From Arenicola marina (taxonomy: Eukaryota > Annelida > Polychaeta > Arenicolidae): DNA of 64,000 nt. Shown here piece by piece: positions 3,841 to 64,000 of the stretch; position 1 is the first letter of the stretch, and each line of letters opens with the position of its first letter. The DNA is taken from positions 379,501 to 443,500 of the forward strand of contig OZ025253.1 in the NCBI GenBank assembly GCA_964019135.1, given 5' to 3'. Both the position numbers and the translations under genes were made by a program. Below the pieces are notes generated by a model. It searched no databases. It was given only the letters and a program-made list of their open reading frames with translations, and had not been told where the DNA came from.

Positions 3841-3905
3841 CACATGGTATGTGACGTCATTCTCCAATGTGGCTACAATGACATCTGTGTAATGTTAATA
3901 CACTT
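3841..3905. repeat. Diverged single 60-bp unit to the right of the hAT-like insert
   Basis: One unit with GTGACGTCATTCTCCAATGT continues the 60-bp array after the insertion. It differs from the main array at more positions than neighbouring units differ from each other, which is usual for an edge copy that escaped homogenisation. Confidence 0.85.
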
Positions 3906-3908
3906 AAT

Positions 3909-40500: not shown

Positions 40501-43500
40501 TGCCACACTTTATGCATTCAGACTTAGTCTGCCACATTTTATGCATTCAGCCTGACAGTCTGCCACAATTTATGCATTCTGCCTTAGTCTGCCACATTTT
40601 ATGCATTCAGCCTTACAGCCTGCCACACTTCATGCATTCAGCCTTAGTCTGCCACACTTCATGCATTCAGCCTTAGTCTGCCACACTTTATGCATTCAGC
40701 CTTAGTCTGCCACACTTTATGCATTCAGCCTTACAGTCTGCCACACTTGATGGATTCAGCCTTAGTCTGCCACACTTTATGCATTCAGCCTTACAGTCTG
40801 CCACACTTTATGCATTCAGCCTTACAGTCTGCCACACTTTATGCATTCAGCCTTAGTCTGCCACACTTCGTGCATTCAGCCTTAGTCTGCCACACTTTAT
40901 GCATTCAGCCTTAGTCAGCCACACTTTATGCATTCAGCCTTGCAGCCTGCCACACTTTATGCATTCAGCCTTACAGTCTGCCACACTTTATGCATTCAGC
41001 CGTAGTCTGCCACACTTTATGCATTCAGCCTTACAGTCTGCCACACTTTATGCATTCAGCCTTAGTCTGCCACACTTTATGCATTCAGCCTTAGTCAGCC
41101 ACACTTTATGCATTCAGCCTTGCAGCCTGCCACACTTTATGCATTCAGCCTTACAGTCTGCCACACTTTATGCATTCAGCCGTAGTCTGCCACACTTTAT
41201 GCATTCAGCTTTGCAGTCTGCCACACTTCATGCATTCAGCCTTGCAGTCTGCCACACTTTATGCATTCAGCCTTGCAGTCTGCCCCACTTTATGCATTCA
41301 TCCTGGCAGTCTGCCACACTTTATGCATTCAGCCTTAGTCTGCCAAACTTTATGCATTCAGCCTTAGTCTGCCACACTTTATGCATTCAGCCTTACAGTC
41401 TGCCACACTTTATGCATTCAGCCTTACAGTCTGCCACACTTTATGCATTCATCCTTAGTCTGCCACACTTTATGCATTCAGCCTTAGTCTGCCACACTTT
41501 ATGCATTCAGCCTTAGTCTGCCAGACTTTAGGCATTCAGCCTTACAGTCTGCCACACTTTATGCTTTCAGCCTTACAGTCTGCCACACTTTATGCATTCA
41601 GCCTTAGTCTGCCACACGTTATGCATTCGGCCTGGCAGTCTGCCACACTTTATGCATTCAGCCTTGCAGTCTGCCACACTTTATGCATTCAGCCTGGCAG
41701 TCTGCCACGCTTGATGCATTCAGCCTTAGTCTGCCACACTTTATGCATTCAGCCTTACAGTCTGCCACACTTTGTGCATTCAGCCTTGCAGTCGGCCACA
41801 CTTTATGCATTCAGCCTGGCAGTCTGCCACACTTTATGCATTCAGCCTTGCAGTCTGCCACACTTTATGCATTCAGCCTTAGTCTGCCACACTTTATGCG
41901 TTCAGCCTTGCAGTCTGTCACACTTTATGCATTCAGCCTTACAATCTGCCACACTTTATGCATTCAGTCTTGCAGTCTGCCACACTTTATTCATTCAGCC
42001 TTACAGTCTGCCACACTTTATGCATTCAGCCTTAGTCTGCCACACTTTATGCATTCAGCCTTGCGGTCTGCCACACTTTATGCATTCAGCCTTACTCTGC
42101 CACACTTTATGCATTCAGCCTTACAGTCTGCCATCCTTCATGCATTCAGTCTTGCAGTCTGCCACACTTTATGCATTCAGCCTTAGTCTGCCACACTTTA
42201 TGCATTCAGTCTTACAGTCTGCCACACTTTATGCATTCAGCTTTGCAGTCTGCCACACTTTATGCATTCAACCTTACTCTGCCACACTTTATGCATTCAG
42301 CCTTACAGTCTGCCACACTTTATGCATGCAGTCTGACAATCTGCCACGCTTTATGCATTCAGCCTTAGTCTACCACACTTTATGCATTCAGCCTTAGTCT
42401 GCCACACTTCGTGCATTCAGCCTTGCAGTCTGCCGCACTTTATGCATTCAGCCTTGCAGTATGCTACACTTTATGCATTCAGCCTTGCAGTCTGCCACAC
42501 TTTATGCATTCAGCCTTGCAGTCTGCCACACTTTATGCATTCAGCCTTGCAGTCTGCCACACTTTATGCATTCAGCCTTAGTCTGCCACACTTCGTGCAT
42601 TCAGCCTTGCAGTCTGCCGCACTTTATGCATTCAGCCTTGCAGTATGCTACACTTTATGCATTCAGCCTTGCAGTCTGCCACACTTTATGCATTCAGCCT
42701 TGCAGTCTGCCACACTTTATGCATTCAGCCTTAGTCTGCCGCACTTTATGCATTCAGCCTTACAATCTGCCGCACTTTATGCATTCAGCCTTGCAGTATG
42801 CTACACTTTATGCATTCAGCCTTGCAGTCTGCCGCACTTCATGCATTCAGCCTTGCAGTATGCTACACTTTATGCATTCAGTCCTACAGTCTGCCACACG
42901 TTATGCATTTATTATCAATTAAGGGCACTTTAAAGCAGCCACCTTCTATAGAAAGTTTGTTTTGTCTTTGGTGTTGACACGTGGTCCATTTCCTTCAGCA
43001 TGTGGCGACTGCCATCAGGGCCACTGGTACGGGTGTTGCCACACGACCGCCGACCGTCATGGTACAGCCCAAGCCCCACCCCATCCAGCGGGGGTTTGCG
43101 ACTATGGGTGGCGGCGGTGGGGGCGTCCGACAGCTTGTGCCTGGAACGGGGCTCATCGGCTCCGGACCCCACCCCAGGATGATGCGCGCGCACGGCCCCC
43201 GCATCCTCAACATTCGGCCCCCCATTGTGGCAGGGGTGTCAATGGCTGGTGCCGTGCGACCACCATCAGCATCCACCGGTACCGGCACTGCCGCTATTAA
43301 CAACGGCAATACTGATGCCGCCTCCCCCCCTGTCGGTGCGCCCCCTTCCAGCGCGCCCTCTGCCGGCGCGCCCCCTGTCGGCGCGCCCCCTGTCGGCGCA
43401 CCCCAGGAGGCCTCTGGGGAAGACTCGGATGCCAAGGCGGGTGAGGAAGAGGACGAGGAAGAGGAGGAGGAGGAGGAGGAGGCCATGGAGGTGGACGCCG

Positions 43501-43944
43501 GAGTATCAGACCCGCCAACCGAGACCATGGCACAAGCAGCGGCGCCTGGCAACCCTAGCATGGAAACCAACCAAGGTAATGTTTCGCCTGAAAACCCCTG
43601 CGAGCAACCAAAGATGGTAATATATCGTGTGGAAGACTACTCAATAATAAATACATTTTCTTTTATTGATACTTAACCCTAGATAACACTTCTTTTTTAC
43701 CGTAGCCAACGAGCAGACAGAGCAGCCCGAGGAGAGGCTGCCACCGCCGCTTGTGGGAGGAGAGCGGGGCGCCGTCCACGGCTCTCTTCAGGAGAGACCT
43801 TCTCCGACCCCGGGTCAGGAGCGGCGCGATCCTGGCCGACCCTCCCCTGCGCCTGGCGAGAAACAACAAGCTATCGTCAAACCGCAGATCCTGACACATA
43901 TCATCGAAGGTTTCGTTATCCAGGAGGCGCGAGAACCGTTTCCG
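19077..43944 (+). CDS. PHC: Polyhomeotic-like protein (PRC1 subunit), nine exons, C-terminus beyond window
   Basis: Exons 19077-19560, 19711-19877, 21107-21287, 24154-24332, 25534-25795, 29003-29142, 29320-29409, 42999-43575 and 43706-43944 join to 2,319 nt, 773 codons, with matching phases (1,0,1,0,1,0,0,1,0). The protein is rich in Gln, Ala, Thr, Ser and Pro, as PHC proteins are, and has an acidic run at about residues 649-664. It reaches the HD1 segment (IVKPQILTHIIEGFVIQE, about residues 750-767). PHC proteins are nuclear subunits of canonical PRC1; HD1 and the FCS zinc finger contact partners and RNA, and the SAM domain polymerises. The zinc finger and SAM are not in the window. An untranslated first exon must lie upstream. 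The gene spans at least 45 kb, almost all of it intronic minisatellite. Confidence 0.88.
19711..19877 (+). CDS. PHC: PHC coding exon 2
   Basis: The acceptor TTTTTGTTGCAG follows a 150-bp intron that has no repeat. One base from exon 1 completes an Ala codon, then MQAQAQALPQQ and a Pro/Gly/Ser-rich stretch with three GRPPSGG-like tandem motifs follow. The donor CCG|GTCAGT ends the exon in phase 0. An internal CAG|GTGAGC at 19,745 is also phase 0 and could serve as an alternative donor that skips 44 codons. The longer form keeps coding character and is preferred. Confidence 0.82.
19878..20589 (+). repeat. 55-bp minisatellite starting at the first base of PHC intron 2, about 13 copies
   Basis: The unit begins GTTAGTCCTCTCATTAACTC and runs 55 bp. 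The authentic donor reads GTCAGTCCTCTCATTACCTC, so the repeat register starts exactly at the 5' splice site and each later unit carries GTTAGT in the donor position. The exon side is not copied. Confidence 0.95.
20590..21069 (+). repeat. 29-bp minisatellite, about 16 copies, PHC intron 2
   Basis: Units of GTACAGTATAGACAGTTGTA plus TCACCGCCA follow the 55-bp array directly. ATCACC and ATAACC variants often alternate, giving a partial 58-bp dimer. The array stops about 40 bp before exon 3, leaving the pyrimidine-rich acceptor region free of repeats. Confidence 0.95.
21107..21287 (+). CDS. PHC: PHC coding exon 3
   Basis: The acceptor is TATTCCTCCCAACCAG, phase 0. It encodes residues 218-277 plus one base: GTVTLKTVAPSDVV, a Gly/Ala-rich stretch, LLQQQQTVYGTKVLQRAA and ASGQPLVIGQI. 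The donor is ATAG|GTATGG in phase 1. The composition fits the Gln-rich middle of PHC. Confidence 0.85.
21485..23870 (+). repeat. 23-bp minisatellite, about 103 copies, PHC intron 3
   Basis: The unit is CCACCTGTCTGCAGATGGTA plus AGA, with ATGGGAAGA, TTGTAAGA and CTGATGG variants. CTGTCTGCAG resembles a 3' splice acceptor and GGTAAGA a 5' donor three to four bases later. A block of 689 bp (30 units less one base) is duplicated: 21,491-22,179 and 22,180-22,868. The 688-residue and similar open frames on the minus strand come from the repeat. Confidence 0.96.
23871..24153 (+). other. Unique 3' part of PHC intron 3
   Basis: About 280 bp of non-repetitive sequence separate the array from exon 4 and supply the branch and acceptor region (TTTGTTTACATCAG). 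Confidence 0.7.
24154..24332 (+). CDS. PHC: PHC coding exon 4
   Basis: The acceptor TTTACATCAG joins in phase 1. The residues include VLSNAGTQQIVTQPKSPSV, a Gln-rich stretch and MFNQLQ. The donor is CAG|GTACAC in phase 0. It encodes residues to 337. Confidence 0.85.
24398..24655 (+). mobile_element. tRNA-derived SINE in PHC intron 4, with AACC tail
   Basis: The head contains box A-like ACAGCTCAGTGGGCTAGAGC and box B GGTTCGACCCC. The element ends in four CCAA repeats. ACCATACATTCTG occurs directly before (24385-24397) and directly after (24656-24668), a perfect 13-bp target duplication, so this insertion is fairly young and the limits are exact. It lies in the same orientation as the host gene. 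Confidence 0.88.
24715..25377 (+). repeat. 47-bp minisatellite, about 14 copies, PHC intron 4
   Basis: Units contain GGATAGACTCGTTTGTGGTA then AATCTCTTTGTCCGAGTATTATGGAG-type sequence with GTGG/ATGG and AGAGG/AGTGG variants. The array begins 60 bp after the SINE. Confidence 0.94.
25381..25475 (+). repeat. 24-bp tandem repeat, four copies, PHC intron 4
   Basis: AGAGTGGCCTAAAACAGCTA plus CATT is repeated four times, adjoining the 47-bp array and about 60 bp before exon 5. Confidence 0.92.
25534..25795 (+). CDS. PHC: PHC coding exon 5
   Basis: The acceptor TTCTTTCTTTCCACTGTTAG is very strong. The exon begins in phase 0 with MAHLQQNIPIAHQQML, and includes SATAIIGTQPLYIRSAGP and a Gly/Lys/Thr-rich end (TGGGVQMKSTGTQVKTVV). 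The donor is AAAG|GTATGA in phase 1. Confidence 0.86.
25808..28952 (+). repeat. 54-bp minisatellite, about 59 copies, filling PHC intron 5
   Basis: The unit includes GTACATCAGGTGGCGGAGCC and AGAGACGCTTCATGTAAAGA. A shorter 52-bp form has ACTTGTTTTGAGGG in place of ACCTTTGTTTTGATGG. A 1,173-bp higher-order duplication is visible (for example the TTTTCAGGG marker at 26,629 and 27,802). The first 26 bp of the intron align with the unit at 18 of 26 positions, placing the unit's CAG|GTGG over the authentic AAAG|GTAT donor. Confidence 0.96.
29003..29142 (+). CDS. PHC: PHC coding exon 6
   Basis: The acceptor GTCGGCTTTCAG joins in phase 1. Encoded sequence includes VANILPQTARPQLAMASTLQ and AKGVQTAQVKQ. 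The donor CAG|GTGCGC is phase 0. An alternative CAG|GTGAAA nine bases upstream is also phase 0 and would drop three residues. Confidence 0.83.
29320..29409 (+). CDS. PHC: PHC coding exon 7
   Basis: A 90-bp exon of 30 whole codons follows a 177-bp intron without repeats. The acceptor is GATTGTTAG. It encodes VSKVRALKPQEKSTGTQAAQ then VLTQSRIPPQ. The last 14 bases and the donor (ATACCGCCACAG|GTGAGACC) are the template of the 35-bp array that follows. Being a multiple of three, the exon could be skipped without a frameshift. Confidence 0.82.
29396..29662 (+). repeat. 35-bp exon-intron junction ('mirage') minisatellite, 8 copies
   Basis: The unit is CATACCGCCACAGGTGAGAC followed by CTTAACCCTAACTCA. 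The first copy is the real end of exon 7. Seven copies have CAG|GTGAGA and the eighth has CAAGTGAG. Each unit also has CCTAAC, a good branch-point match, about 18 bases before its CAG, so donor and acceptor signals overlap in each copy. Using the second donor would read GTG AGA CCT TAA and stop. Confidence 0.95.
29663..42911 (+). repeat. 29/31-bp minisatellite, about 440 copies, filling PHC intron 7
   Basis: Units read TCTGCCACACTTTATGCATT plus CAGCCTTAG (29 bp) or CAGCCTTACAG / CAGCCTTGCAG (31 bp). The two lengths are interspersed and 29+31+31 gives a frequent 91-bp superunit. Longer duplications occur, for example 451 bp between the CAACCGTAG markers at 31,450 and 31,901. The array runs to within 90 bp of exon 8. 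Hundreds of overlapping open frames are repeat artefacts. Confidence 0.97.
42999..43575 (+). CDS. PHC: PHC coding exon 8
   Basis: The acceptor CCATTTCCTTCAG is phase 0. The exon encodes HVATAIRATGTGVATRPPTV, a Gly-rich run, then a Pro/Ala stretch with repeated PPVGAP and PPSSAP motifs. After SGEDSDAKAG comes an acidic block of about 14 Glu/Asp and the sequence AMEVDAG. The donor is CAAG|GTAATG in phase 1. A continuation to a second donor at 43,617 would be phase 0 and would not fit exon 9. The Pro/Ala and acidic blocks are simple-sequence expansions in an otherwise disordered linker. Confidence 0.85.
43706..43944 (+). CDS. PHC: PHC coding exon 9, carrying the HD1 segment
   Basis: The acceptor TTCTTTTTTACCGTAG follows a 130-bp intron. 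One base from exon 8 plus CC gives Ala, then NEQTEQPEERLPPP. The C-terminal part is AIVKPQILTHIIEGFVIQEA followed by REPFP, the HD1 segment conserved in animal PHC proteins. The donor CCG|GTAAGC is phase 0. The last 24 bases plus donor are the template for the giant array that follows. The remaining exons (FCS finger, linker, SAM) must lie more than 20 kb downstream. Confidence 0.92.
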
Positions 43945-46900
43945 GTAAGCCAGATACATGACTGTAGGTCTTTGGACTGGACCAGGAGTGAGAATCGTGT
44001 CCGGTGAGCTAGAGACATGACTGTAGGCCTTTGGACTGGACCAGGAGTGAGAACCGTGTCCGGTGAGCTAGAGACATGACTGTAGGCCTTTGAACTGGAC
44101 CAGGAGGCGTGAGAAGCGTGTCCAGTGAGCTAGAGACATGACTGTAGGCCTTTGGACTGGACCAGGAGTGAGAACCGTGTCCAGTGAGCTAGAGACATGA
44201 CTGTAGGCCTTTGGACTGGACCAGGAGTGAGAACCGTGTCCAGTGAGCTAGAGACACAACTGTAGGCCTTTGGACTGGACCAGGAGGAGTGAGAACCGTG
44301 TCCGGTGAGCTAGAGACATGACTGTAGGCCTTTGGACTGGACCAGGAGGAGTGAGAACCGTGTCCGGTGAGCTAGAGACATGACTGTAGGCCTTTGGACT
44401 GGACCAGGAGTGAGAACCGTGTCCAGTGAGCTAGAGACATGACTGTAGGCCTTTGGACTGGACCAGGAGTGAGAACCGTGTCCAGTGAGCTAGAGACATG
44501 ACTGTAGGCCTTTGGACTGGACCAGGAGGAGTGAGAACCGTGTCCGGTGAGCTAGAGACATGACTGTAGGCCTTTGGATTGGACCAGGAGTGAGAACCGT
44601 GTCCAGTGAGCTAGAGACATGACTGTAGGCCTTTGGACTGGACCAGGAGAAGTGAGAACCGTGTTCGGTGAGCTAGAGACATGACTGTAGGCTTTTGGAC
44701 TGGACCAGGAGGAGTGAGAACCGTGTCCAGTGAGCTAGAGACACAACTGTAGGTCTTTGGACTGGACCAGGAGGAGTGAGAACCGTGTCCGGTGAGCTAG
44801 AGACACAACTGTAGGTCTTTGGACTGGACCAGGAGGAGTGAGAACCGTGTCCGGTGAGCTAGAGACATGACTGTAGGCCTTTGGACTGGACCAGGAGGAG
44901 TGAGAACCGTGTCCGGTGAGCTAAAGACATGACTGTAGGCCTTTGGATTGGACCAGGAGTGAGAACCGTGTCCAGTGAGCTAGAGACATGACTGTAGGCC
45001 TTTGGACTGGACCAGGAGTGAGAACCGTGTCCAGTGAGCTAGAGACATGACTGTAGGCCTTTGGACTGGGCCAGGAGGAGTGAGAACCGTGTCCGGTGAG
45101 CTAGAGACATGACTGTAGGCCTTTGGATTGGACCAGGAGTGAGAACCGTGTCCAGTGAGCTAGAGACATGACTGTAGGCCTTTGGACTGGGCCAGGAGGA
45201 GTGAGAACCGTGTCCGGTGAGCTAGAGACATGACTGTAGGCCTTTGGCTTGGACCAGGAGTGAGAACCGTGTCCAGTGAGCTAGAGACATGACTGTAGGC
45301 CTTTGGACTGGGCCAGGAGGAGTGAGAACCGTGTCCGGTGAGCTAGAGACATGACTGTAGGCCTTTGGATTGGACCAGGAGTGAGAACCGTGTCCGGTGA
45401 GCTAGAGACATGACTGTAGGCATTTGGACTGGGCCAGGAGGAGTGAGAACCGTGTCCGGTGAGCTAGAGATATGACTGTAGGCCTTTGGATTGGACCAGG
45501 AGTGAGAACCGTGTCCAGTGAGCTAGAGACATGACTGTAGGCCTTTGGACTGGGCCAGGAGGAGTGAGAACCGTGTCCGGTGAGCTAGAGACATGACTGT
45601 AGGCCTTTGGATTGGACCAGGAGTGAGAACCGTGTCCAGTGAGCTAGAGACATGACTGTAGGCCTTTGGACTGGACCAGGAGGAGTGAGAACCGTGTTCG
45701 GTGAGCTAGAGACATGACTGTAGGCCTTTGGACTGGACCAGGAGGAGTGAGAACCGTGTCCAGTGAGCTAGAGACATGACTGTAGGCCTTTGGACTGGAC
45801 CAGGAGGCATGAGAACCGTGTCCGGTGAGCTAAAGACATGACTGTAGGCCTTTGGACTGGACCAGGAGGAGTGAGAACCGTGTCCGGTGAGCTACAGAAA
45901 TGACTGTAGGCCTTTGGACTGGACCAGGAGTGAGAAACGTGTCCGGTGAGCTAGAGACATGACTGTAGGCCTTTGGACTGGATTAGGAGGAGTGAGAACC
46001 GTGTCCGGTGAGCTAGAGACATGACTGTAGGCCTTTGGACTGGACCAGGAGGCGTGAGAACCGTGTCCGGTGAGCTAGAGACATGACTGTAGGCCTTTGG
46101 ACTGGACCAGGAGTGAGAACCGTGTCCGGTGAGCTAGAGACATGAGTGTAGGCCTTTGGACTGGACCAGGAGGAGTGAGAACCGTGTCCAGTGAGCTAGA
46201 TACATCACTGTAGGCCTTTGGACTGGACCAGGAGGAGTGAGAACCGTGTCCGGTGAGCTAGAGACATGACTGTAGGCCTTTGGACTGGACCAGAAGGCGT
46301 GAGAACCGTGTCCGGTGAGCTAGAGACATGACTGTATGCCTTTGGACTGGACCAGGAGTGAGAACCGTGTCCCGTGAGCTAGAGACATGACTGTAGGCCT
46401 TTGGACCGGACCAGGAGTGAGAACCGTGTCCGGTGAGCTAGAGACATGACTGTAGGCCTTTGGACTGGACCAGGAGTGAGAACCGTGTCCCGTGAGCTAG
46501 AGACATGATTGTAGGCCTTTGGATTGGACCAGGAGTGAGAACCGTGTCCGGTGAGCTAGAGACATGACTGTAGGCCTTTGGACTGGACCAGGAGGAGTGA
46601 GAACCGTGTTCGGTGAGCTAGAGACATGACTGTAGGCCTTTGGACTGGACCAGGAGGAGTGAGAACCGTGTCCAGTGAGCTAGAGACATGACTGTAGGCC
46701 TTTGGACTGGACCAGGAGGCATGAGAACCGTGTCCGGTGAGCTAAAGACATGACTGTAGGCCTTTGGACTGGACCAGGAGGAGTGAGAACCGTGTCCGGT
46801 GAGCTACAGAAATGACTGTAGGCCTTTGGACTGGACCAGGAGTGAGAACCGTGTCCGGTGAGCTAGAGACATGACTGTAGGCCTTTGGACTGGATTAGGA

Positions 46901-49900
46901 GGAGTGAGAACCGTGTCCGGTGAGCTAGAGACATGACTGTAGGCCTTTGGACTGGACCCGGAGGCGTGAGAACCGTGTCCGGTGAGCTAGAGACATGACT
47001 GTAGGCCTTTGGACTGGACCAGGAGTGAGAACCGTGTCCGGTGAGCTAGAGACATGAGTGTAGGCCTTTGGACTGGACCAGGAGGAGTGAGAACCGTGTC
47101 CAGTGAGCTAGATACATCACTGTAGGCCTTTGGACTGGACCAGGAGGAGTGAGAACCGTGTCCGGTGAGCTAGAGACATGACTGTAGGCCTTTGGACTGG
47201 ACCAGGAGGAGTGAGAACCGTGTCCGGTGAGCTAGAGACATGACTGTAGGCCTTTGGACTGGACCAGAAGGCGTGAGAACCGTGTCCGGTGAGCTAGAGA
47301 CATGACTGTATGCCTTTGGACTGGACCAGGAGTGAGAACCGTGTCCCGTGAGCTAGAGACATGACTGTAGGCCTTTGGACCGGACCAGGAGTGAGAACCG
47401 TGTCCGGTGAGCTAGAGACATGACTGTAGGCCTTCGGACTGGACCAGGAGTGAGAACCGTGTCCCGTGAGCTAGAGACATGACTGTAGGCATTTGGACTG
47501 GACCAGGAGGAGTGAGAACCGTGTCCGGTGAGCTAGAGACATGACTGTAGGCCTTTGGACTGGACCAGGAGTGAGAACCGTGTCCCGTGAGCTAGAGACA
47601 TGACTGTAGGCATTTGGACTGGACCAGGAGGCGTGAGAACCGTGTCCGGTGAGCTAGAGACAAGACTGTAGGCCTTTGGACTGGACCAGGAGTGAGAAAC
47701 GTGTCCGGTGAGCTAGAGACATGACTGTAGGCCTTTCGACTGGACCAGGAGTGAGAACCGTGTCCCGTGAGCTAGAGACATGACTGTAGGCATTTGGACT
47801 GGACCAGGAGGAGTGAGAACCGTGTCCGGTGAGCTAGAGACATGACTGTAGGTCTTTAGACTGGACCAGGAGTGAGAACCGTGTCCGGTGAGCTAGAGAC
47901 ATGACTGTAGGCCTTTGGACTGGACCAGGAGGCGTGAGAACCGTGTCCGGTGAGCTAGAGACATGACTGTAGGCCTTTGGACTAGACCAGGAGGAGCGAG
48001 AACCGTGTCCGGTGAGCTACAGACAGGACTGTAGGCCTTTGGACTGGACCAGGAGTGAGAACCGTGTCCGGTGAGCTAGAGACATGACTGTAGGCCTTTG
48101 GACTGGACTAGGAGGAGTGAGAACCGTGTCCAGTGAGCTAGAGACATGACTGTAGGCCTTTGGACTGGACCAGGAGTGAGAACCGTGTCCGGTGAGCTAG
48201 AGACATGACTGTAGGCCTTTGGACTGGACCAGGAGGCGTGAGAACCGTGTCCAGTCAGCTAGAGACATGACTGTAGGCCCTTGGACTGGACCAGGAGGAG
48301 TGAGAACCGTGTCCAGTGAGCTAGAGACATGACTGTAGGCCTTTGGACTGGACCAGGAGGCGTGAGAACCGTGTCCAGTCAGCCAGAGACATGACTGTAG
48401 GCCCTTGGACTGGACCAGGAGTGAGAACCGTGTCCGGTGAGCTAGAGACATGACTGTAGGCCTTTAGACTCTACCAGCAGGAGTGAGAACCGTGTCCAGT
48501 GAGCTAGAGACATGACTGTAGGCCTTTGGACTGGACCAGGAGGCGTGAGAACCGTGTCCGGTGAGCTAGAGACATGACTGTAGGCCTTTGGACTGGACCA
48601 GGAGTGAGAACCGTGTCCGGTGAGCTAGAGACATGAGTGTAGGCCTTTGGACTGGACCAGGAGGAGTGAGAACCGTGTCCAGTGAGCTAGAGACATGACT
48701 GTAGGCCTTTGGACTGGACCAGGAAGAGTGAGAACCGTGTCCGGTGAGCTAGAGACATGACTGTAGGCCTTTAGACTGGACCAGCAGGAGTGAGAACCGT
48801 GTCCGGTGAGCTAGAGACATGACTGTAGGCCTTTGGACTGGATTAGGAGGAGTGAGAACCGTGTCCGGTGAGCTAGAGACATGAGTGTAGGCCTTTGGAC
48901 TAGACCAGGAGGAGTGAGAACCGTGTCCGGTGAGCTAGAGACATGACTGTAGGCCTTTGGACTGGACCAGGAGTGAGAACCGTGTCCAGTGAGCTAGAGA
49001 CACAACTGTAGGCCTTTGGACTGGACCAGGAGGACTGAGAACCGTGTCCGGTGAGCTAGAGACATGACTGTAGGCCTTTAGACTGGACCAGGAGGAGTGA
49101 GAACCGTGTCCGGTGAGCTAGAGACATGACTGTAGGCCTTTGGACTGGATTAGGAGGAGTGAGAACCGTGTCCGGTGAGCTAGAGACATGACTGTAGGCC
49201 TTTGGACTAGACCAGGAAGAGTGAGAACCGTGTCCGGTCAGCTAGAGACATGACTGTAGGCCTTTGGACTGGACCAGGAGTGAGAACCGTGTCCAGTGAG
49301 CTAGAGACACAACTGTAGGCCTTTGGACTGGACCAGGAGGACTGAGAACCGTCTCCGGTGAGCTAGAGACATGACTGTAGGCCTTTTGACTGGACCAGGA
49401 GGAGTGAGAACCGTGTCCGGTGAGCTAGAGACATGACTGTAGGCATTTGGACTGGACCAGGAGGAGTGAGAACCGTGTCCCGTAAGCTAGAGACATGACT
49501 GTAGGCATTTGGACTGGACCAGGAGGAGTGAGAACCGTGTCCGGTGAGCTAGAGACATGACTGTAGGCCTTTGGACTGGACCAGGAGGCGTGAGAACCGT
49601 GTCCGGTGAGCTAGAGACATGACTGTAGGCCTTTAGACTGGACCAGGAGTGAGAACCGTGTCCGGTGAGCTAGAGACATGAGTGTAGGCCTTTGGACTGG
49701 ACCAGGAGGAGTGAGAACTGTGTCCGGTGAGCTAGAAACATGACTGTAGGCCTTTGGACTTGACCAGGAGGAGTGAGAACCGTGTCCGGTGAGCTAGAGA
49801 CATGACTGTAGGCCTTTAGACTGGACCAGCAGGAGTGAGAACCGTGTCCGGTGAGCTAGAGACATGACTGTAGGCCTTTGGACTAGACCAGGAGGAGTGA

Positions 49901-52900
49901 GAACCGTGTCCGGTGAGCTAGAGACATGACTGTAGGCCTTTGGACTGGACCAGGAGTGAGAACCGTGTCCAGTGAGCTAGAGACCTGATTGTAAGCCTTT
50001 GGACTGGACCAGGAGGACTGAGAACCGTGTCCGGTGAGCTAGAGACATGACTGTAGGCCTTTGGACTGGACCAGGAGGAGTGAGAACCGTGTCCGGTGAG
50101 CTAGAGACATGACTGTAGGCCTTTAGACTGGACCAGGAGGAGTGAGAACCGTGTCCGGTGAGCTAGAGACATGACTGTAGGCCTTTAGACTGGATTAGGA
50201 GGAGTGAGAACCGTGTCCGGTGAGCTAGAGACATGTCTGTAGGCCTTTGGACTAGACCAGGAAGAGTGAGAACCGTGTCCGGTGAGCTAGAGACATGACT
50301 GTAGGCCTTTTGACTGGACCAGGAGGAGTGAGAACCGTGTCCGGTGAGCTAGAGACATGACTGTAGGCTTTTGGACTGGACCAGGAGTAAGAACCGTGTC
50401 CGGTGAGCTAGAGACATGACTGTAGGCATTTGGACTGGACCAGGAGGAGTGAGAACCGTGTCCCGTGAGCTAGAGACATGACTGTAGGCATTTGGACTGG
50501 ACCAGGAGTAGTGAGAACCGTGTCCGGTGAGCTAGAGACATGACTGTAGGCCTTTGGACTGGACCAGGAGGCGTGAGAACCGTGTCCGGTGAGCTAGAGA
50601 CATGACTGTAGGCTATTGGACTGGACCAGGAGGAGTGAGAACCGTGTCCGGTGAGCTAGAGACATGACTGTAGGCCTTTGGTCTGGACCAGGAGGCGTGA
50701 GAACCGTGTCCGGTGAGCTAGAGACATGACTGTAGGCCTTTGGACTGGACCAGGAGTGAGAACCGTGTCCCGTGAGCTAGAGACATGACTGTAGGCCTTT
50801 GGACTGGACCAGGAGGAGTGAGAACCGTGTCCCGTGAGCTAGAGACATGACTGTAGGCATTTGGACTGGACCAGGAGGAGTGAGAACCGTGTCCGGTGAG
50901 CTAGAGATATGACTGTAGGCCTTTGGACTGGACCAGGAGGCGTGAGAACCGTGACCGGTGAGCTAGAGACATGACTGTAGGCTATTGGACTGGACCAGGA
51001 GGAGTGAGAACCGTGTCCGGTGAGCTAGAGACATGACTGTAGGTCTTTAGACTGGACCAGGAGTGAGAACCGTGTCCGGTGAGCTAGAGACATGACTGTA
51101 GGCCTTTGGACTTGACCAGGACGCGTGAGAACCGTGTCCGGTGAGCTAGAGACAAGACTGTAGGCCTTTGGACTGGACCAGGAGTGAGAAACGTGTCCGG
51201 TGAGCTAGAGACATGACTGTAGGCCTTTCGACTGGACCAGGAGTGAGAACCGTGTCCCGTGAGCTAGAGACATGACTGTAGGCATTTGGACTGGACCAGG
51301 AGGAGTGAGAACCGTGTCCGGTGAGCTAGAGACATGACTGTAGGTCTTTAGACTGGACCAGGAGTGAGAACCGTGTCCGGTGAGCTAGAGACATGACTGT
51401 AGGCCTTTGGACTGGACCAGGAGGCGTGAGAACCGTGTCCGGTGAGCTAGAGACATGACTGTAGGCCTTTGGACTAGACCAGGAGGAGCGAGAACCGTGT
51501 CCGGTGAGCTACAGACAGGACTGTAGGCCTTTGGACTGGACCAGGAGTGAGAACCGTGTCCGGTGAGCTAGAGACATGAGTGTAGGCCTTTGGACTGGAC
51601 TAGGAGGAGTGAGAACCGTGTCCAGTGAGCTAGAGACATGACTGTAGGCCTTTGGACTGGACCAGGAGTGAGAACCGTGTCCGATGAGCTAGAGACATGA
51701 CTGTAGGCCTTTGGACTAGACCAGGAGGCGTGAGAACCGTGTCCAGTCAGCTAGAGACATGACTGTAGGCCCTTGGACTGGACCAGGAGGAGTGAGAACC
51801 GTGTCCAGTGAGCTAGAGACATGACTGTAGGCCTTTGGACTGGACCAGGAGGCGTGAGAACCGTGTCCAGTCAGCCAGAGACATGACTGTAGGCCCTTGG
51901 ACTGGACCAGGAGTGAGAACCCTGTCCGGTGAGCTAGAGACATGACTGTAGGCCTTTAGACTCTACCAGCAGGAGTGAGAACCGTGTCCAGTGAGCTAGA
52001 GACATGACTGTAGGCCTTTGGACTGGACCAGGAGGCGTGAGAACCGTGTCCGGTGAGCTAGAGACATGACTGTAGGCCTTTGGACTGGACCAGGAGTGAG
52101 AACCGTGTCCGGTGAGCTAGAGACATGAGTGTAGGCCTTTGGACTGGACCAGGAGGAGTGAGAACCGTGTCCAGTGAGCTAGAGACATGACTGTAGGCCT
52201 TTGGACTGGACCAGGAAGAGTGAAAACCGTGTCCGGTGAGCTAGAGACATGACTGTAGGCCTTTGGACTGGATTAGGAGGAGTGAGAACCGTGTCCGGTG
52301 AGCTAGAGACATGAGTGTAGGCCTTTGGACTAGACCAGGAGGAGTGAGAACCGTGTCCGGTGAGCTAGAGACATGACTGTAGGCCTTTGGACTGGACCAG
52401 GAGTGAGAACCGTGTCCAGTGAGCTAGAGACACAACTGTAGGCCTTTGGACTGGACCAGGAGGACTGAGAACCGTGTCCGGTGAGCTAGAGACATGACTG
52501 TAGGCTTTTAGACTGGACCAGGAGGAGTGAGAACCGTGTCCGGTGAGCTAGAGACATGACTGTAGGCTTTTTGGACTGGATTAGGAGGAGTGAGAACCGT
52601 GTCCGGTGAGCTAGAGACATGACTGTAGGCCTTTGGACTAGACCAGGAAGAGTGAGAACCGTGTCCGGTGAGCTAGAGACATGACTGTAGGCCTTTGGAC
52701 TGGACCAGGAGTGAGAACCGTGTCCAGTGAGCTAGAGACACAACTGTAGGCCTTTGGACTGGACCAGGAGGACTGAGAACCGTGTCCGGTGAGCTAGAGA
52801 CATGACTGTAGGCCTTTTGACTGGACCAGGAGGAGTGAGAACCGTGTCCGGTGAGCTAGAGACATGACTGTAGGCCTTTGGACTGGATTAGGAGGAGTGA

Positions 52901-55900
52901 GAACCGTGTCCGGTGAGCTAGAGACATGACTGTAGGCATTTGGACTGGACCAGGAGGAGTGAGAACCGTGTCCCGTGAGCTAGAGACATGACTGTAGGCA
53001 TTTGGACTGGACCAGGAGGAGTGAGAACCGTGTCCGGTGAGCTAGAGACATGACTGTAGGCCTTTGGACTGGACCAGGAGGCGTGAGAACCGTGTCCGGT
53101 GAGCTAGAGACATGACTGTAGGCCTTTGGACTGGACCAGGAGGAGTGAGAACCGTGTCCAGTGAGCTAGAAACATGACTGTAGGCCTTTGGACTGGACCA
53201 GGAGGAGTGAGAACCGTGTCCGGTGAGCTAGAGACATGACTGTAGGCCTTTAGACTGGACCAGGAGGAGTGAGAACCGTGTCCGGTGAGCTAGAGACATG
53301 ACTGTAGGCATTTGGACTGGACCAGGAGGAGTGAGAACCGTGTCCCGTAAGCTAGAGACATGACTGTAGGCATTTGGACTGGACCAGGAGGAGTGAGAAC
53401 CGTGTCCGGTGAGCTAGAGACATGACTGTAGGCCTTTGGACTGGACCAGGAGGCGTGAGAACCGTGTCCGGTGAGCTAGAGACATGACTGTAGGCCTTTA
53501 GACTGGACCAGGAGTGAGAACCGTGTCCGGTGAGCTAGAGACATGAGTGTAGGCCTTTGGACTGGACCAGGAGGAGTGAGAACTGTGTCCGGTGAGCTAG
53601 AAACATGACTGTAGGCCTTTGGACTTGACCAGGAGGAGTGAGAACCGTGTCCGGTGAGCTAGAGACATGACTGTAGGCCTTTAGACTGGACCAGCAGGAG
53701 TGAGAACCGTGTCCGGTGAGCTAGAGACATGACTGTAGGCCTTTGGACTAGACCAGGAGGAGTGAGAACCGTGTCCGGTGAGCTAGAGACATGACTGTAG
53801 GCCTTTGGACTGGACCAGGAGTGAGAACCGTGTCCAGTGAGCTAGAGACCTGATTGTAAGCCTTTGGACTGGACCAGGAGGACTGAGAACCGTGTCCGGT
53901 GAGCTAGAGACATGACTGTAGGCCTTTGGACTGGACCAGGAGGAGTGAGAACCGTGTCCGGTGAGCTAGAGACATGACTGTAGGCCTTTAGACTGGACCA
54001 GGAGGAGTGAGAACCGTGTCCGGTGAGCTAGAGACATGACTGTAGGCCTTTAGACTGGATTAGGAGGAGTGAGAACCGTGTCCGGTGAGCTAGAGACATG
54101 TCTGTAGGCCTTTGGACTAGACCAGGAAGAGTGAGAACCGTGTCCGGTGAGCTAGAGACATGACTGTAGGCCTTTTGACTGGACCAGGAGGAGTGAGAAC
54201 CGTGTCCGGTGAGCTAGAGACATGACTGTAGGCTTTTGGACTGGACCAGGAGTAAGAACCGTGTCCGGTGAGCTAGAGACATGACTGTAGGCATTTGGAC
54301 TGGACCAGGAGGAGTGAGAACCGTGTCCCGTGAGCTAGAGACATGACTGTAGGCATTTGGACTGGACCAGGAGTAGTGAGAACCGTGTCCGGTGAGCTAG
54401 AGACATGACTGTAGGCCTTTGGACTGGACCAGGAGGCGTGAGAACCGTGTCCGGTGAGCTAGAGACATGACTGTAGGCTATTGGACTGGACCAGGAGGAG
54501 TGAGAACCGTGTCCGGTGAGCTAGAGACATGACTGTAGGCCTTTGGTCTGGACCAGGAGGCGTGAGAACCGTGTCCGGTGAGCTAGAGACATGACTGTAG
54601 GCCTTTGGACTGGACCAGGAGTGAGAACCGTGTCCCGTGAGCTAGAGACATGACTGTAGGCCTTTGGACTGGACCAGGAGGAGTGAGAACCGTGTCCCGT
54701 GAGCTAGAGACATGACTGTAGGCATTTGGACTGGACCAGGAGGAGTGAGAACCGTGTCCGGTGAGCTAGAGATATGACTGTAGGCCTTTGGACTGGACCA
54801 GGAGGCGTGAGAACCGTGACCGGTGAGCTAGAGACATGACTGTAGGCTATTGGACTGGACCAGGAGGAGTGAGAACCGTGTCCGGTGAGCTAGAGACATG
54901 ACTGTAGGTCTTTAGACTGGACCAGGAGTGAGAACCGTGTCCGGTGAGCTAGAGACATGACTGTAGGCCTTTGGACTTGACCAGGACGCGTGAGAACCGT
55001 GTCCGGTGAGCTAGAGACAAGACTGTAGGCCTTTGGACTGGACCAGGAGTGAGAAACGTGTCCGGTGAGCTAGAGACATGACTGTAGGCCTTTCGACTGG
55101 ACCAGGAGTGAGAACCGTGTCCCGTGAGCTAGAGACATGACTGTAGGCATTTGGACTGGACCAGGAGGAGTGAGAACCGTGTCCGGTGAGCTAGAGACAT
55201 GACTGTAGGTCTTTAGACTGGACCAGGAGTGAGAACCGTGTCCGGTGAGCTAGAGACATGACTGTAGGCCTTTGGACTGGACCAGGAGGCGTGAGAACCG
55301 TGTCCGGTGAGCTAGAGACATGACTGTAGGCCTTTGGACTAGACCAGGAGGAGCGAGAACCGTGTCCGGTGAGCTACAGACAGGACTGTAGGCCTTTGGA
55401 CTGGACCAGGAGTGAGAACCGTGTCCGGTGAGCTAGAGACATGAGTGTAGGCCTTTGGACTGGACTAGGAGGAGTGAGAACCGTGTCCAGTGAGCTAGAG
55501 ACATGACTGTAGGCCTTTGGACTGGACCAGGAGTGAGAACCGTGTCCGATGAGCTAGAGACATGACTGTAGGCCTTTGGACTAGACCAGGAGGCGTGAGA
55601 ACCGTGTCCAGTCAGCTAGAGACATGACTGTAGGCCCTTGGACTGGACCAGGAGGAGTGAGAACCGTGTCCAGTGAGCTAGAGACATGACTGTAGGCCTT
55701 TGGACTGGACCAGGAGGCGTGAGAACCGTGTCCAGTCAGCCAGAGACATGACTGTAGGCCCTTGGACTGGACCAGGAGTGAGAACCCTGTCCGGTGAGCT
55801 AGAGACATGACTGTAGGCCTTTAGACTCTACCAGCAGGAGTGAGAACCGTGTCCAGTGAGCTAGAGACATGACTGTAGGCCTTTGGACTGGACCAGGAGG

Positions 55901-58900
55901 CGTGAGAACCGTGTCCGGTGAGCTAGAGACATGACTGTAGGCCTTTGGACTGGACCAGGAGTGAGAACCGTGTCCGGTGAGCTAGAGACATGAGTGTAGG
56001 CCTTTGGACTGGACCAGGAGGAGTGAGAACCGTGTCCAGTGAGCTAGAGACATGACTGTAGGCCTTTGGACTGGACCAGGAAGAGTGAAAACCGTGTCCG
56101 GTGAGCTAGAGACATGACTGTAGGCCTTTGGACTGGATTAGGAGGAGTGAGAACCGTGTCCGGTGAGCTAGAGACATGAGTGTAGGCCTTTGGACTAGAC
56201 CAGGAGGAGTGAGAACCGTGTCCGGTGAGCTAGAGACATGACTGTAGGCCTTTGGACTGGACCAGGAGTGAGAACCGTGTCCAGTGAGCTAGAGACACAA
56301 CTGTAGGCCTTTGGACTGGACCAGGAGGACTGAGAACCGTGTCCGGTGAGCTAGAGACATGACTGTAGGCTTTTAGACTGGACCAGGAGGAGTGAGAACC
56401 GTGTCCGGTGAGCTAGAGACATGACTGTAGGCTTTTTGGACTGGATTAGGAGGAGTGAGAACCGTGTCCGGTGAGCTAGAGACATGACTGTAGGCCTTTG
56501 GACTAGACCAGGAAGAGTGAGAACCGTGTCCGGTGAGCTAGAGACATGACTGTAGGCCTTTGGACTGGACCAGGAGTGAGAACCGTGTCCAGTGAGCTAG
56601 AGACACAACTGTAGGCCTTTGGACTGGACCAGGAGGACTGAGAACCGTGTCCGGTGAGCTAGAGACATGACTGTAGGCCTTTTGACTGGACCAGGAGGAG
56701 TGAGAACCGTGTCCGGTGAGCTAGAGACATGACTGTAGGCCTTTGGACTGGATTAGGAGGAGTGAGAACCGTGTCCGGTGAGCTAGAGACATGACTGTAG
56801 GCATTTGGACTGGACCAGGAGGAGTGAGAACCGTGTCCCGTGAGCTAGAGACATGACTGTAGGCATTTGGACTGGACCAGGAGGAGTGAGAACCGTGTCC
56901 GGTGAGCTAGAGACATGACTGTAGGCCTTTGGACTGGACCAGGAGGCGTGAGAACCGTGTCCGGTGAGCTAGAGACATGACTGTAGGCCTTTGGACTGGA
57001 CCAGGAGGAGTGAGAACCGTGTCCAGTGAGCTAGAAACATGACTGTAGGCCTTTGGACTGGACCAGGAGGAGTGAGAACCGTGTCCGGTGAGCTAGAGAC
57101 ATGACTGTAGGCCTTTAGACTGGACCAGCAGGAGTGAGAACCGTGTCCGGTGAGCTAGAGACATGACTGTAGGCCTTTGGACTAGACCAGGAGGAGTGAG
57201 AACCGTGTCCGGTGAGCTAGAGACATGACTGTAGGCCTTTGGACTGGACCAGGAGTGAGAACCGTGTCCAGTGAGCTAGAGACCTGATTGTAGGCCTTTG
57301 GACTGGACCAGTAGGACTGAGAACCGTGTCCGGTGAGCTAGAGACATGACTGTAGGCCTTTGGACTGGACCAGGAGGAGTGAGAACCGTGTCCGGTGAGC
57401 TAGAGACATGACTGTAGGCCTTTAGACTGGACCAGGAGGAGTGAGAACCGTATCGGGTGAGCTAGAGACATGACTGTAGGCCTTTGGACTGGATTAGGAG
57501 GAGTGAGAACCGTGTCCGGTGAGCTACAGACAGGACTGTAGGCCTTTGGACTGGACCAGGAGTGAGAACCGTGTCCGGTGAGCTAGAGACATGAGTGTAG
57601 GCCTTTGGACTGGACTAGGAGGAGTGAGAACCGTGTCCAGTGAGCTAGAGACATGACTGTAGGCCTTTGGACTGGACCAGGAGTGAGAACCGTGTCCGGT
57701 GAGCTAGAGACATGACTGTAGGCCTTTGGACTGGACCAGGAGGCGTGAGAACCGTGTCCAGTGAGCTAGAGACATGACTGTAGGCCCTTGGACTGGACCA
57801 GGAGGAGTGAGAACCGTGTCCAGTGAGCTAGAGACATGACTGTAGGCCTTTGGACTGGACCAGGAGGCGTGAGAACCGTGTCCAGTCAGCCAGAGACATG
57901 ACTGTAGGCCCTTGGACTGGACCAGGAGTGAGAACCCTGTCCGGTGAGCTAGAGACATGACTGTAGGCCTTTAGACTCTACCAGCAGGAGTGAGAACCGT
58001 GTCCAGTGAGCTAGAGACATGACTGTAGGCCTTTGGACTGGACCAGGAGGCGTGAGAACCGTGTCCGGTGAGCTAGAGACATGACTGTAGGCCTTTGGAC
58101 TGGACCAGGAGTGAGAACCGTGTCCGGTGAGCTAGAGACATGAGTGTAGGCCTTTGTACTGGACCAGGAGGAGTGAGAACCGTGTCCAGTGAGCTAGAGA
58201 CATGACTGTAGGCCTTTGGACTGGAACAGGAAGAGTGAAAACCGTGTCCGGTGAGCTAGAGACATGACTGTAGGCCTTTGGACTGGATTAGGAGGAGTGA
58301 GAACCGTGTCCGGTGAGCTAGAGACATGAGTGTAGGCCTTTGGACTGGACCAGGAGTGAGAACCGTGTCCGGTGAGCTAGAGACATGAGTGTAGGCCTTT
58401 GGACTAGACCAGGAGGAGTGAGAACCGTGTCCGGTGAGCTAGAGACATGACTGTAGGCCTTTGGACTAGACCAGGAAGAGTGAGAACCGTGTCCGGTGAG
58501 CTAGAGACATGACTGTAGGCCTTTGGACTGGACCAGGAGTGAGAACCGTGTCCAGTGAGCTAGAGACACAACTGTAGGCCTTTGGACTGGACCAGGAGGA
58601 CTGAGAACCGTGTCCGGTGAGCTAGAGACATGACTGTAGGCCTTTTGACTGGACCAGGAGGAGTGAGAACCGTGTCCCTTGAGCTAAAGACATGACTGTA
58701 GGCCTTTGGACTGGATTAGGAGGAGTGAGAACCGTGTCCGGTGAGCTAGAGACATGACTGTAGGCATTTGGACTGGACCAGGAGGAGTGAGAACCGTGTC
58801 CCGTGAGCTAGAGACATGACTGTAGGCATTTGGACTGGACCAGGAGGAGTGAGAACCGTGTCCGGTGAGCTAGAGACATGACTGTAGGCCTTTGGACTGG

Positions 58901-60849
58901 ACCAGGAGGCGTGAGAACCGTGTCCGGTGAGCTAGAGACATGACTGTAGGCCTTTGGACTGGACCAGGGGGAGTGAGAACCGTGTCCAGTGAGCTAGAAA
59001 CATGACTGTAGGCCTTTGGACTGGACCAGGAGGAGTGAGAACCGTGTCCGGTGAGCTAGAGACATGACTGTAGGCCTTTAGACTGGACCAGCAGGAGTGA
59101 GAACCGTGTCCGGTGAGCTAGAGACATGACTGTAGGCCTTTGGACTAGACCAGGAGGAGTGAGAACCGTGTCCGGTGAGCTAGAGACATGACTGTAGGCC
59201 TTTGGACTGGACCAGGAGTGAGAACCGTGTCCAGTGAGCTAGAGACCTGATTGTAGGCCTTTGGACTGGACCAGGAGGACTGAGAACCGTGTCCGGTGAG
59301 CTAGAGACATGACTGTAGGCCTTTGGACTGGGCCAGGAGGAGTGAGAACCGTGTCCGATGAGGTAGAGACATGACTGTAGGCCTTTGGACTGGACCAGGA
59401 AGAGTGAGAACCGTGTCCGGTGAGCTAGAGACATGACTGTAGGCCTTTGGTCTGGACCAGGAGAAGTGAGAACCGTGTCCGGTGAGCTAGAGACATGACT
59501 GTAGGCCTTTGGACTGGACCAGGAGGAGTGAGAACCGTGTCCGGTGAGCTAGAGACATGACTGTTGGCCTTTGGACTGAACCAGGAGTGAGAACCGTGTC
59601 CGGTGAGCTAGAGACATGACTGTAGGCCTTTAGACTCTACCAGGAGGAGTGAGAACCGTGCCCGGTGAGCTAGAGACATGACTGTAGGCCTTTGGACTGG
59701 ACCAGGAGGAGTGAGAACCGTGTCCAGTTAGCTAGAGACATTACTGTAGGCCTTTGGACTGGACCAGCAGGAGTGAGAACCGTGTCCAGTGAGCTAGAGA
59801 CATGACTTTAGGCCTTTGGTCTGGACCAGGAGTGAGAACCGTGTCCAGTGAGCTAGAGACATGACTGTAGGCCTTTGGACTGGGCCAGGAGGAGTGAGAA
59901 CCGTGTCCGATGAGGAAGAGACATGACTGTAGGCCTTTGGACTGGACCAGGAAGAGTGAGAACCGTGTCCGGTGAGCTAGAGACATGACTGTAGGCCTTT
60001 GGTCTGGACCAGGAGAAGTGAGAACCGTGTCCGGTGCGCTAGAGACATGACTGTAGGCTTTTGGACTGGACCATGAGTGAGAACCGTGTCCAGTGAGCTA
60101 GAGACATGACTGTAGGCCTTTGGACTGGGCCAGGAGGATTGAGAACCGTGTCCGATGAGGAAGAGACATGACTGTAGGCCTTTGGACTGGACCAGGAAGA
60201 GTGAGAACCGTGTCCGGTGAGCTAGAGACATGACTGTAGGCCTTTGGACAGGACCAGGAGGCGTTAGAACCGTGTCCAGTGAGCTAGAGACACATCTGTA
60301 GACCTTTGGACTGGACCAGGAGGCGTGAGAACCGTGTCCGGTGAGCTAGAGACATGACTGTAGGCCTTTGGACTGGACCAGGAGGCGTTAGAACCGTGTC
60401 CAGTGAGCTAGAGACACAACTGTAGGCCTTTGGACTGGACCAGGAGGCGTGAGAACCGTGTCCGGTGAGCTAGAGGCATGACTGTAGGCCTTTGGACTGG
60501 ACCAGGAGTGAGAACCGTGTCCGGTGAGCTGGAGACATGAGTGTAGGCCTTTGGACTGGACCAGGAGACGTTAGAAGCGTGTCCAGTGAGCTAGAGACAT
60601 GACTGTAGGCCTTTGGACTGGACCAGGAGTGAGAACCGTGTCCGGTGAGCTAGAGACATGAGTGTAGGCCCTTGGACTGGACCAGGAGGCGTTAGAAGCG
60701 TGTCCGGTGAGCTAGAGACATGACTGTAGGCCTTTGGACAGGACCAGGAAGAGTGAGAACCGTGTCCGGTGAGCTAGAGACATGCGTGTAGGCCTTTGGA
60801 CTGGACCAGGAGGCGTTAGAAGCGTGTCCGGTGAGCTAGAGACATGACT
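43921..60849 (+). repeat. Giant 59/62-bp exon-intron junction ('mirage') minisatellite, about 275 copies
   Basis: The first copy overlaps exon 9: CAGGAGGCGCGAGAACCGTT then TCCG|GTAAGC. Later units read CCAGGAGGCGTGAGAACCGT then GTCCG|GTGAGCTAG and about 33 bp of intron sequence. Forms with GGAGTGAG (62 bp), GGCGTGAG (62 bp) and GAGTGAG (59 bp) are mixed. GTGAGC is kept in nearly every unit; the base before it is G, A or C. Higher-order duplications of 912 bp and 3,865 bp are visible. The unit carries TGA in the frame that matches the exon. Confidence 0.97.
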
Positions 60850-63800: not shown

Positions 63801-64000
63801 CCGGGCCTAGGACTAAGAACCGCCTAATATAGCCAGACCTAGGATTAGGAACCGCTTAATATAGCCGGACCTAGGATTAGGAACCGCGTAATATAGCCGG
63901 GCCTAGGATTAGGAACCGCGTAATATAGCCGGGCCTAGGATTAGGAACCGCTTAATATAGCCGGACCTAGGATTAGGAACCGCTTAATATAGCCGGACCT
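60850..64000 (+). repeat. 32-bp minisatellite, about 98 copies, open at the right edge
   Basis: Units read TAATATAGCCGGACCTAGGA plus TTAGGAACCGC(G/T). It starts abruptly inside the last 62-bp unit. Variants are GGACC/GGGCC and CGCGTAAT/CGCTTAAT/GGCATAAT. A 703-bp block (22 units less one base) is duplicated, with markers at 61,761/62,464 and 62,068/62,771, and a partial third copy near 63,186. It lies in PHC intron 9 and continues past the window. Confidence 0.96.

Follow-up and report, generated by a model that had tools for sequence, protein, structure and literature searches.

Exon 9 of the polyhomeotic (PHC) gene of the annelid Arenicola marina ends in the first of 277 tandem copies of its own exon-intron junction. 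The gene lies in the 64,000-nucleotide stretch of DNA analyzed here (the window), which corresponds to positions 379501-443500 of the plus strand of contig OZ025253.1 (C6 below) in the 867-Mb, 762-contig assembly GCA_964019135.1 and contains no N bases. We consider it very probable that the array is a splice-junction ("mirage") minisatellite that expanded from the end of exon 9 into intron 9 and has no function of its own, the first 5' splice site (donor 1) being the real one and the later copies (decoys) being tolerated.

The array (43920-60849, + strand) was delimited with Tandem Repeats Finder (TRF) and by wrap-around alignment. TRF reports one array of 16,930 bp with a period of 62, 276.7 copies, and 92% matches, and the alignment divides it into 277 units (200 of 62 bp, 76 of 59 bp, and one 44-bp partial), 112 of which are distinct. 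Each unit contains 22-25 nt of the end of exon 9, a donor, and 37 bp of intron; the 59-bp units lack three exon-derived bases. Within the exon motif GGAGGCG, A replaces C in 157 units, C is kept in 44, and three bases are absent from 76. An earlier note on this DNA, made from its letters alone, had counted about 275 copies over 17 kb with about 24 bp of coding sequence each, in agreement with these figures, and had put the intron part at about 33 bp, which proved too short. When the 867-Mb genome was searched for exact matches to a 20-mer from the unit, all 30 matches listed fell within this array and on the same strand, and the reversed control gave 0; a chance origin of the array is excluded.

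Three properties of a mirage minisatellite were found. The array starts inside exon 9, so its unit spans the real exon-intron boundary; the additional copies are intronic and, as judged at the protein level, do not enter the product; and splice signals are retained in many repeats (GT in 271/277, GTGAG in 258/277). Exon 9 (43706-43944, + strand, end phase 0; translation, phases, and relatives) ends in ..CAGGAGGCGCGAGAACCGTTTCCG/GTAAGCC, where the slash marks the boundary here and below, and donor 1, CCG/GTAAGC at 43945-43950 (+ strand), is the exon-proximal copy. The exon encodes the first part of HD1 (..ILTHIIEGFVIQEAREPFP), and its end matches the HD1 segment of PHC2 in PDB 2na1 (E = 2.8e-6). 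Exon 10 lies at window-equivalent position 81900, ∼38 kb downstream of exon 9, and starts with VQRCS. Because it restores EPFP/VQR in phase, with no array text in the join, the exon 9 model of the earlier note stands at the protein level; the four closest relatives read EPFP/VQRSS at this point. Intron 9 is 37,955 bp long, and tandem arrays make up 96.5% of it.

The units have a mean similarity of ∼92.6% (unit lags 1-149), and the first copy is set apart from them, its best identity to any unit being 90.3%. The units resemble this first copy to an even degree all along the array, apart from the last 17 (the partial one included). Inside the array, 63 units form a 3,865-bp block that is present in two perfect tandem copies with 0 mismatches (49395-57124, + strand). 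This repeat reflects either a very recent duplication or an assembly error and, in this one assembly, is compatible with length instability. A 32-bp array (60848-64000, + strand) follows directly, takes up the rest of intron 9, and continues beyond the window to window-equivalent position 79521. At L010 5520-6720, a non-repeat insert of ∼1.2 kb separates two 32-bp arrays of similar text, also in intron 9.

The donors of the array are near-identical. Their 9-mers are CCGGTGAGC in 183 units, CCAGTGAGC in 54, CCCGTGAGC in 17, and CCAGTCAGC in 7, with 16 others that include the real CCGGTAAGC once. The unit donor TCCG/GTGAGC given in the earlier note therefore describes the 183 units with CCG/GTGAGC; the remaining ones differ, and base -1 is A in 62 and C in 20. 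GTAAG is confined to donor 1 and to positions 49482 and 53347, which are one unit in both copies of the duplicated block. A second, GTGAGA-like site is present in most units (GT in 259/277), at which the real exon has GCGAGA instead. The computed U1 pairing energy is -8.2 kcal/mol for donor 1, -8.3 for 186 decoys, and -10.4 for one decoy, the other 89 being weaker.

The copied exon frame contains a stop in 268/276 copies, which bears out the TGA codons seen earlier in the units. Readthrough from exon 9 first meets a stop at 44005, within the GTGAGC of decoy donor 2 itself (44004-44009, + strand), and 275 of the 276 decoys lie beyond it. As computed, use of decoy 2 would add 59 nt, shift the frame, and give 819 residues in total, with a stop after 46 residues past the junction; use of the second-type site at 43988 would also end the protein early (800 residues in all). 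From these frames, a premature stop is predicted whichever of the 276 decoys is used. Exon 9 would measure 239, 298, 357, 419, and 478 nt with donors 1-5 and 17,125 nt with the last donor, such that only 5/277 donors (donor 1 and four decoys) yield an exon of ≤500 nt. The donor columns are no better conserved than the rest of the unit (mean number of distinct minor alleles 1.22 vs. 1.47; 19/62 nine-column windows are as low or lower). Among 110 distinct units, +2 T and +5 G are invariant, and -1 varies in 29. We see no sign of selection for or against the decoy donors in this array, because their columns vary like the others.

The direction of copying can be read from the protein. The real exon encodes QEAREPFP, and the array encodes QEA-stop-EPCP or QEE-stop-EPCP. 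PFP is conserved in 14/14 relatives fetched (13 with EPFP and one with DPFP; Drosophila supplies six of the 14), whereas the array has EPCP and a stop, and, on the evidence of these sequences, the exon text is therefore ancestral and the array derived from it, as the earlier note had supposed in having the array grow from the junction.

Outside exon 9, the gene model was assembled from open frames, phases, and similarity to relatives. Exons 1-9 occupy 19077-43944 on the + strand with consistent splice phases: exon 1 (19077-19560; coding part, any upstream exon not having been sought), exon 2 (19711-19877), exon 3 (21107-21287), exon 4 (24154-24332), exon 5 (25534-25795), exon 6 (29003-29142), exon 7 (29320-29409; from translation and splice phases), and exon 8 (42999-43575). 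Exons 10-13 were located in the 50 kb 3' of the window. The complete gene has 13 coding exons and encodes 1,087 amino acids with HD1, an FCS zinc finger (PF21319, E = 9.6e-11), and a SAM domain (PF00536, E = 3.1e-12). In searches that each scored only ∼8,000 candidates, the joined protein matched polyhomeotic-like proteins of Octopus sinensis, Argonauta hians, and Lineus longissimus and an uncharacterized protein of Tubulanus polymorphus, none of the matches being close. Searches of the genome for the GFP family, which a lancelet would be expected to have, and for arthropod cuticle and molluscan hemocyanin families gave 0 matches, with the controls silent as well. A Pfam search with exons 1, 7, 8, and 9 gave nothing useful, and scanning the window for tRNAs and Rfam families returned 0 matches.

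Arrays are present in 9/12 PHC introns, where they account for 54-99% of intron length; only the three short introns (130-177 bp) are free of them. When the donor G is counted as +1, without adjusting for the absence of a position 0, the first array starts at +4, +195, +392, +13, -11, -24, -2, +12, and -50 in introns 2, 3, 4, 5, 7, 9, 10, 11, and 12, respectively, and the last array of each of these introns ends 29-312 bp before the next exon. Units that contain the donor are found at four exons (7, 9, 10, and 12); the earlier note, right about exon 9, had missed the other three as well as the cases elsewhere in the genome. Exon 7 ends in ..ATACCGCCACAG/GTGAGACC, and its 35-bp array (29398-29662, + strand, 7.6 copies) includes 12 nt of the exon plus CAG/GTGAGA, with seven exact junction 17-mers. 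At exon 10, a 29-bp unit in 44.6 copies includes 3 nt of exon, and 40 copies have TCT/GTRAGTA. At exon 12, a 72-bp unit with 51 nt of exon is present in 26 copies, and 24/26 donors are identical (TCG/GTAAGC). All 19 exact matches listed in the genome for a 24-mer of the exon 12 unit fall in that array. This unit equals 24 codons, and use of its decoy 2 is computed to add 24 amino acids in frame (a protein of 1,111 amino acids), with decoy 3 leading to a stop. The computed products of two exon 7 decoys stop 3 residues past the junction, and that of the one exon 10 decoy tested stops 2 residues past it. In the exon 12 array (L011 1581-3461), the unit also has an acceptor-like CGCAG, and it could become a repeated coding segment in frame.

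Two more arrays begin close to donors, a 55-bp array from position +4 of intron 2 (19881-20589, + strand) and a 54-bp array from position +13 of intron 5 (25808-28951, + strand). Their similarity to the exons was not significant at five lengths, and they are classed as donor-adjacent only. Overall, arrays enter the exon at 4/9 PHC donors (one by just 3 nt) and at 0/9 acceptors. The tests for this bias, all post hoc and on small samples, gave 0.041 (one-sided Fisher), 0.026 (Mann-Whitney on distances), and 0.064 (paired Wilcoxon), and a looser post hoc cut gave 7/9 donors vs. 0/9 acceptors (Fisher, 0.001).

Acceptor-like sites are also multiplied in this gene. The 31-bp array that fills the rest of intron 7 (29661-42909, + strand) places 847 YAG sites upstream of the real exon 8 acceptor, with 7-10 pyrimidines in the preceding 13 bases (median 8; ≥10 in 5/847). 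The real acceptors of the window have 8-11 (median 9; ≥10 in 4/9). The YAG sites are only slightly poorer than these and therefore cannot be called harmless. A common origin of neighboring arrays is not supported, in-register tests of the 62-32, 35-31, 55-29, and 47-24 pairs being not significant (best z 1.5). Among 156 local alignments of 13 unit types on both strands, one high score (22-bp vs. 62-bp, z 5.5) was judged to be chance. When the 13 arrays of the window were compared with shuffles, the 23-bp and 35-bp units stood out for donors, in sense and antisense alike.

Junction arrays are not restricted to PHC. In a random sample of C6 (20 stretches of 10 kb), tandem arrays occupy 70,060 of 200,000 bases (∼35%). 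Two cases were spotted by eye in two of these random stretches, chosen as interesting-looking. The first is in a 6-phosphogluconate dehydrogenase gene (PGD; PF00393, E = 8.6e-34), which has a 30-bp donor array of 25.9 copies by TRF (AG/GTAAT kept in 15, GGTAAT in 22) and, before another exon, a 64-bp acceptor array in which 29 regular copies were found. The second is a rather degenerate 67-bp donor array in a caspase gene (PF00656, E = 2.4e-21), with 5.3 copies and 69% matches. Similar arrays were seen at C6 loci and on C1, C8, C11, and C17.

For a counted share, we surveyed chaperonin (CCT) genes. PF00118 gave 49 matches; three in two long open frames were set aside, and the first 20 of the remaining 46 by E-value were taken with 330 bp of flank on each side, 270 bp of which is visible past the match end. 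Match ends are not always exon ends, and arrays further off escape this count. On the donor side, 4/20 flanks have an array and 3/20 have one that includes the donor; two of these carry exon text (82 and 58 bp), and the third, for which TRF starts ∼23 bp past the donor, was extended by eye. On the acceptor side, 3/20 flanks have an array and 2/20 have one that includes the acceptor, one with only 1.9 copies. The acceptor arrays in PGD and CCT show that the donor bias is not absolute. Because about one-third of the sampled DNA is array, the 3/20 donors found in arrays do not exceed what random placement would give; the share is, if anything, lower, as selection would predict. In array-bearing flanks, the splice site is included in 5/7, compared with ∼1.5 expected for even array edges (binomial 0.006, with a crude null chosen post hoc), and this is the sole hint of seeding at junctions. 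No clear general excess of strong donors was detected in the units of 59 arrays from 230 kb (the 20 random stretches plus loci L012-L014): the mean rank against base shuffles was 0.43 (expected 0.5), and 16/59 had a donor of ≤ -8 kcal/mol on either strand.

Rampant minisatellite growth throughout the genome, with junction arrays surviving where the exon-proximal copy still works, is the simplest account of these observations. A broader proposal, that minisatellites arise preferentially at splice junctions, that a considerable fraction of donors and some acceptors have thereby become arrays holding from tens to hundreds of almost identical sites, and that choice of the exon-proximal site is a general and constantly tested rule, strikes us as rather unlikely in that form.

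For the exon 9 array itself, we infer the following course. A segment of ∼62 bp covering the last bases of exon 9 and the first of intron 9 would have undergone tandem duplication, and slippage or unequal exchange would then have spread further copies into the intron. Copies within the array would have been homogenized, the first being exempt; constrained by its coding and donor roles, it would have remained the real exon end, every later copy being intron. Donor 1 may be favored because it is the earliest to be transcribed and yields the shortest exon (239 nt); just four of the decoys could yield one of ≤500 nt. Under exon definition, only the first few decoys would compete seriously. Decoy products with a premature stop would be destroyed by nonsense-mediated decay, and the decoys could thus be tolerated because donor 1 comes first with the shortest exon and because their products carry stops. 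The array would be one product of a tandem-repeat expansion that also affects other donors and some acceptors.

Several points weigh against this reading. At least as good a pairing with U1 as that of donor 1 is computed for 187/276 decoys, and strength alone therefore fails to account for which donor is chosen. Exon definition and decay are steps taken from general knowledge, and the use of donor 1 is indicated at the protein level only. The product of decoy 2 at exon 12, with 24 amino acids added in frame, would escape destruction. Finally, the array length comes from a single assembly, in which the perfect duplication of a block is suspicious.

Four other explanations were weighed. Intronic 5' splice sites can bind U1 without splicing, in what is known as U1 telescripting, and the decoys could be functional in this way, as ∼250 U1-binding sites in a 38-kb intron that shield the nascent transcript against premature cleavage and polyadenylation, or could set the level of PHC by diverting transcripts to decay. 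The retention of GT in 271/277 units and GTGAG in 258, the second GTGAGA-like site in most units, the invariant +2 T and +5 G among 110 distinct units, and the sense donors of the PHC 23-bp and 35-bp arrays, which are stronger than most shuffles, are all consistent with such a role. We nevertheless regard it as improbable: the donor columns are not more conserved than others, -1 varies in 29/110 distinct units, the neighboring 31-bp and 32-bp arrays lack a strong sense donor, and arrays make up 35% of random stretches, so no special role is needed.

It is still less probable that the length of the array, in whole or in part, is an assembly artefact. Tandem arrays this long are hard to assemble, and the 63-unit block is repeated with 0 mismatches, but that block explains 3.9 of 16.9 kb, the 112 distinct units stand in a structured order with no simple stutter in a window without N, and the same sort of array occurs at other C6 loci and on C1, C8, C11, and C17.

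Stepwise removal of the 38-kb intron through the units, by serial micro-exons or recursive splicing, appears highly unlikely. The consensus unit has an AG (..GACCAG/GAG..) 5' of a donor-like site, from which a pseudo-exon of 18 or 21 nt can be drawn, but, read by eye from the units, it has no AG/GT juxtaposition, its AG is preceded by few pyrimidines, and an in-frame TGA interrupts the drawn micro-exon. That the exon end was instead captured from a pre-existing intronic repeat, as 22/24 bases common to exon 9 and the closest array version might suggest, is extremely improbable given PFP in 14/14 relatives, the stop and EPCP of the array versions, and the lack of an exact unit 20-mer outside the array among the matches listed.

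Other features were observed along the way. The 60-bp array at the start of the window (1-3359) continues upstream (L014 3633-10000, 106 copies), and a diverged lone unit of it lies at ∼3841-3905, behind a 480-bp insert. A 48-bp array (3733-4419) lies within a 228-amino acid open frame that repeats NVFADVGQMMAVGAGD; this frame is possibly due to chance, because 48 is a multiple of three. Long inverted repeats at 10524-11050, 5445-6993, and 5553-6047 (arms of 105, 99, 92, and 85 nt) resemble fold-back elements. Five small contigs (C443, C465, C504, C330, and C652) contain kinase frames with TAG, or TAA and TAG, never TGA, as in a ciliate-type code, and are perhaps, at a guess, from a contaminant or symbiont. 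Five equal-score kinase-domain matches at ∼8.5-kb spacing on one strand of C5 (5402476-5437356) look like a recent tandem gene array.

For a normal protein, the cell still has to choose the first copy in the exon 9 array, and the gene is a natural experiment on the choice of the first among many near-identical 5' splice sites. One Polycomb gene has 277 donors in one intron, 26 in another (the second copy in frame), and seven identical 20-nt junction copies in a third. Because the decoy products are predictable (a stop, a frame shift, or 24 added amino acids), long-read RNA could measure splice-site fidelity directly. Junction-spanning minisatellites can reach 17 kb and, within one genome, occur in several unrelated genes, a finding relevant to intron growth and to the origin of new exons and introns.

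Related systems have been described. In the Rogers model of intron gain by tandem genomic duplication, as reviewed in PMC3443670, duplicated splice-signal text likewise leaves extra copies as intron, but the outcome is a new intron; in PHC, an intron became longer. The human segmental-duplication genes in PMC2812944 also have junction repeats of minisatellite size able to alter splicing; their internal tandem repeats have a mean unit of 30 bp in four copies, compared with 62 bp in 277 copies here. Among the open-access titles and abstract openings listed for junction-spanning minisatellites, none names an array of comparable size.

The closest precedent is the amphioxus mirage minisatellite, which the earlier note had named from amphioxus Adh; PMC3087553 and PMC3902484 do cite the lancelet gene. 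Besides this Adh3 case, mirages are described in the globins BflGb6 and BflGb9, to which PMC3902484 adds a PGBD5 case and a citation of troponin C. Donor- and acceptor-side cases are reported, many copies carry AG/GT signals, boundary copies escape homogenization, and RT-PCR suggests normal splicing. The amphioxus mirages and the exon 9 array are alike in being tandem repeats across an exon-intron boundary with copied splice signals. They differ in copy number, BflGb6 haplotypes having 3 and 6 units and PGBD5 having 2 to 7, and in the four donor arrays found within the one PHC gene. Based on these comparisons, the kind of array is one already described in lancelets; the exon 9 copy number is far above the published lancelet cases compared, and what is added here is the scale, four cases in one gene, and a counted share of junctions.

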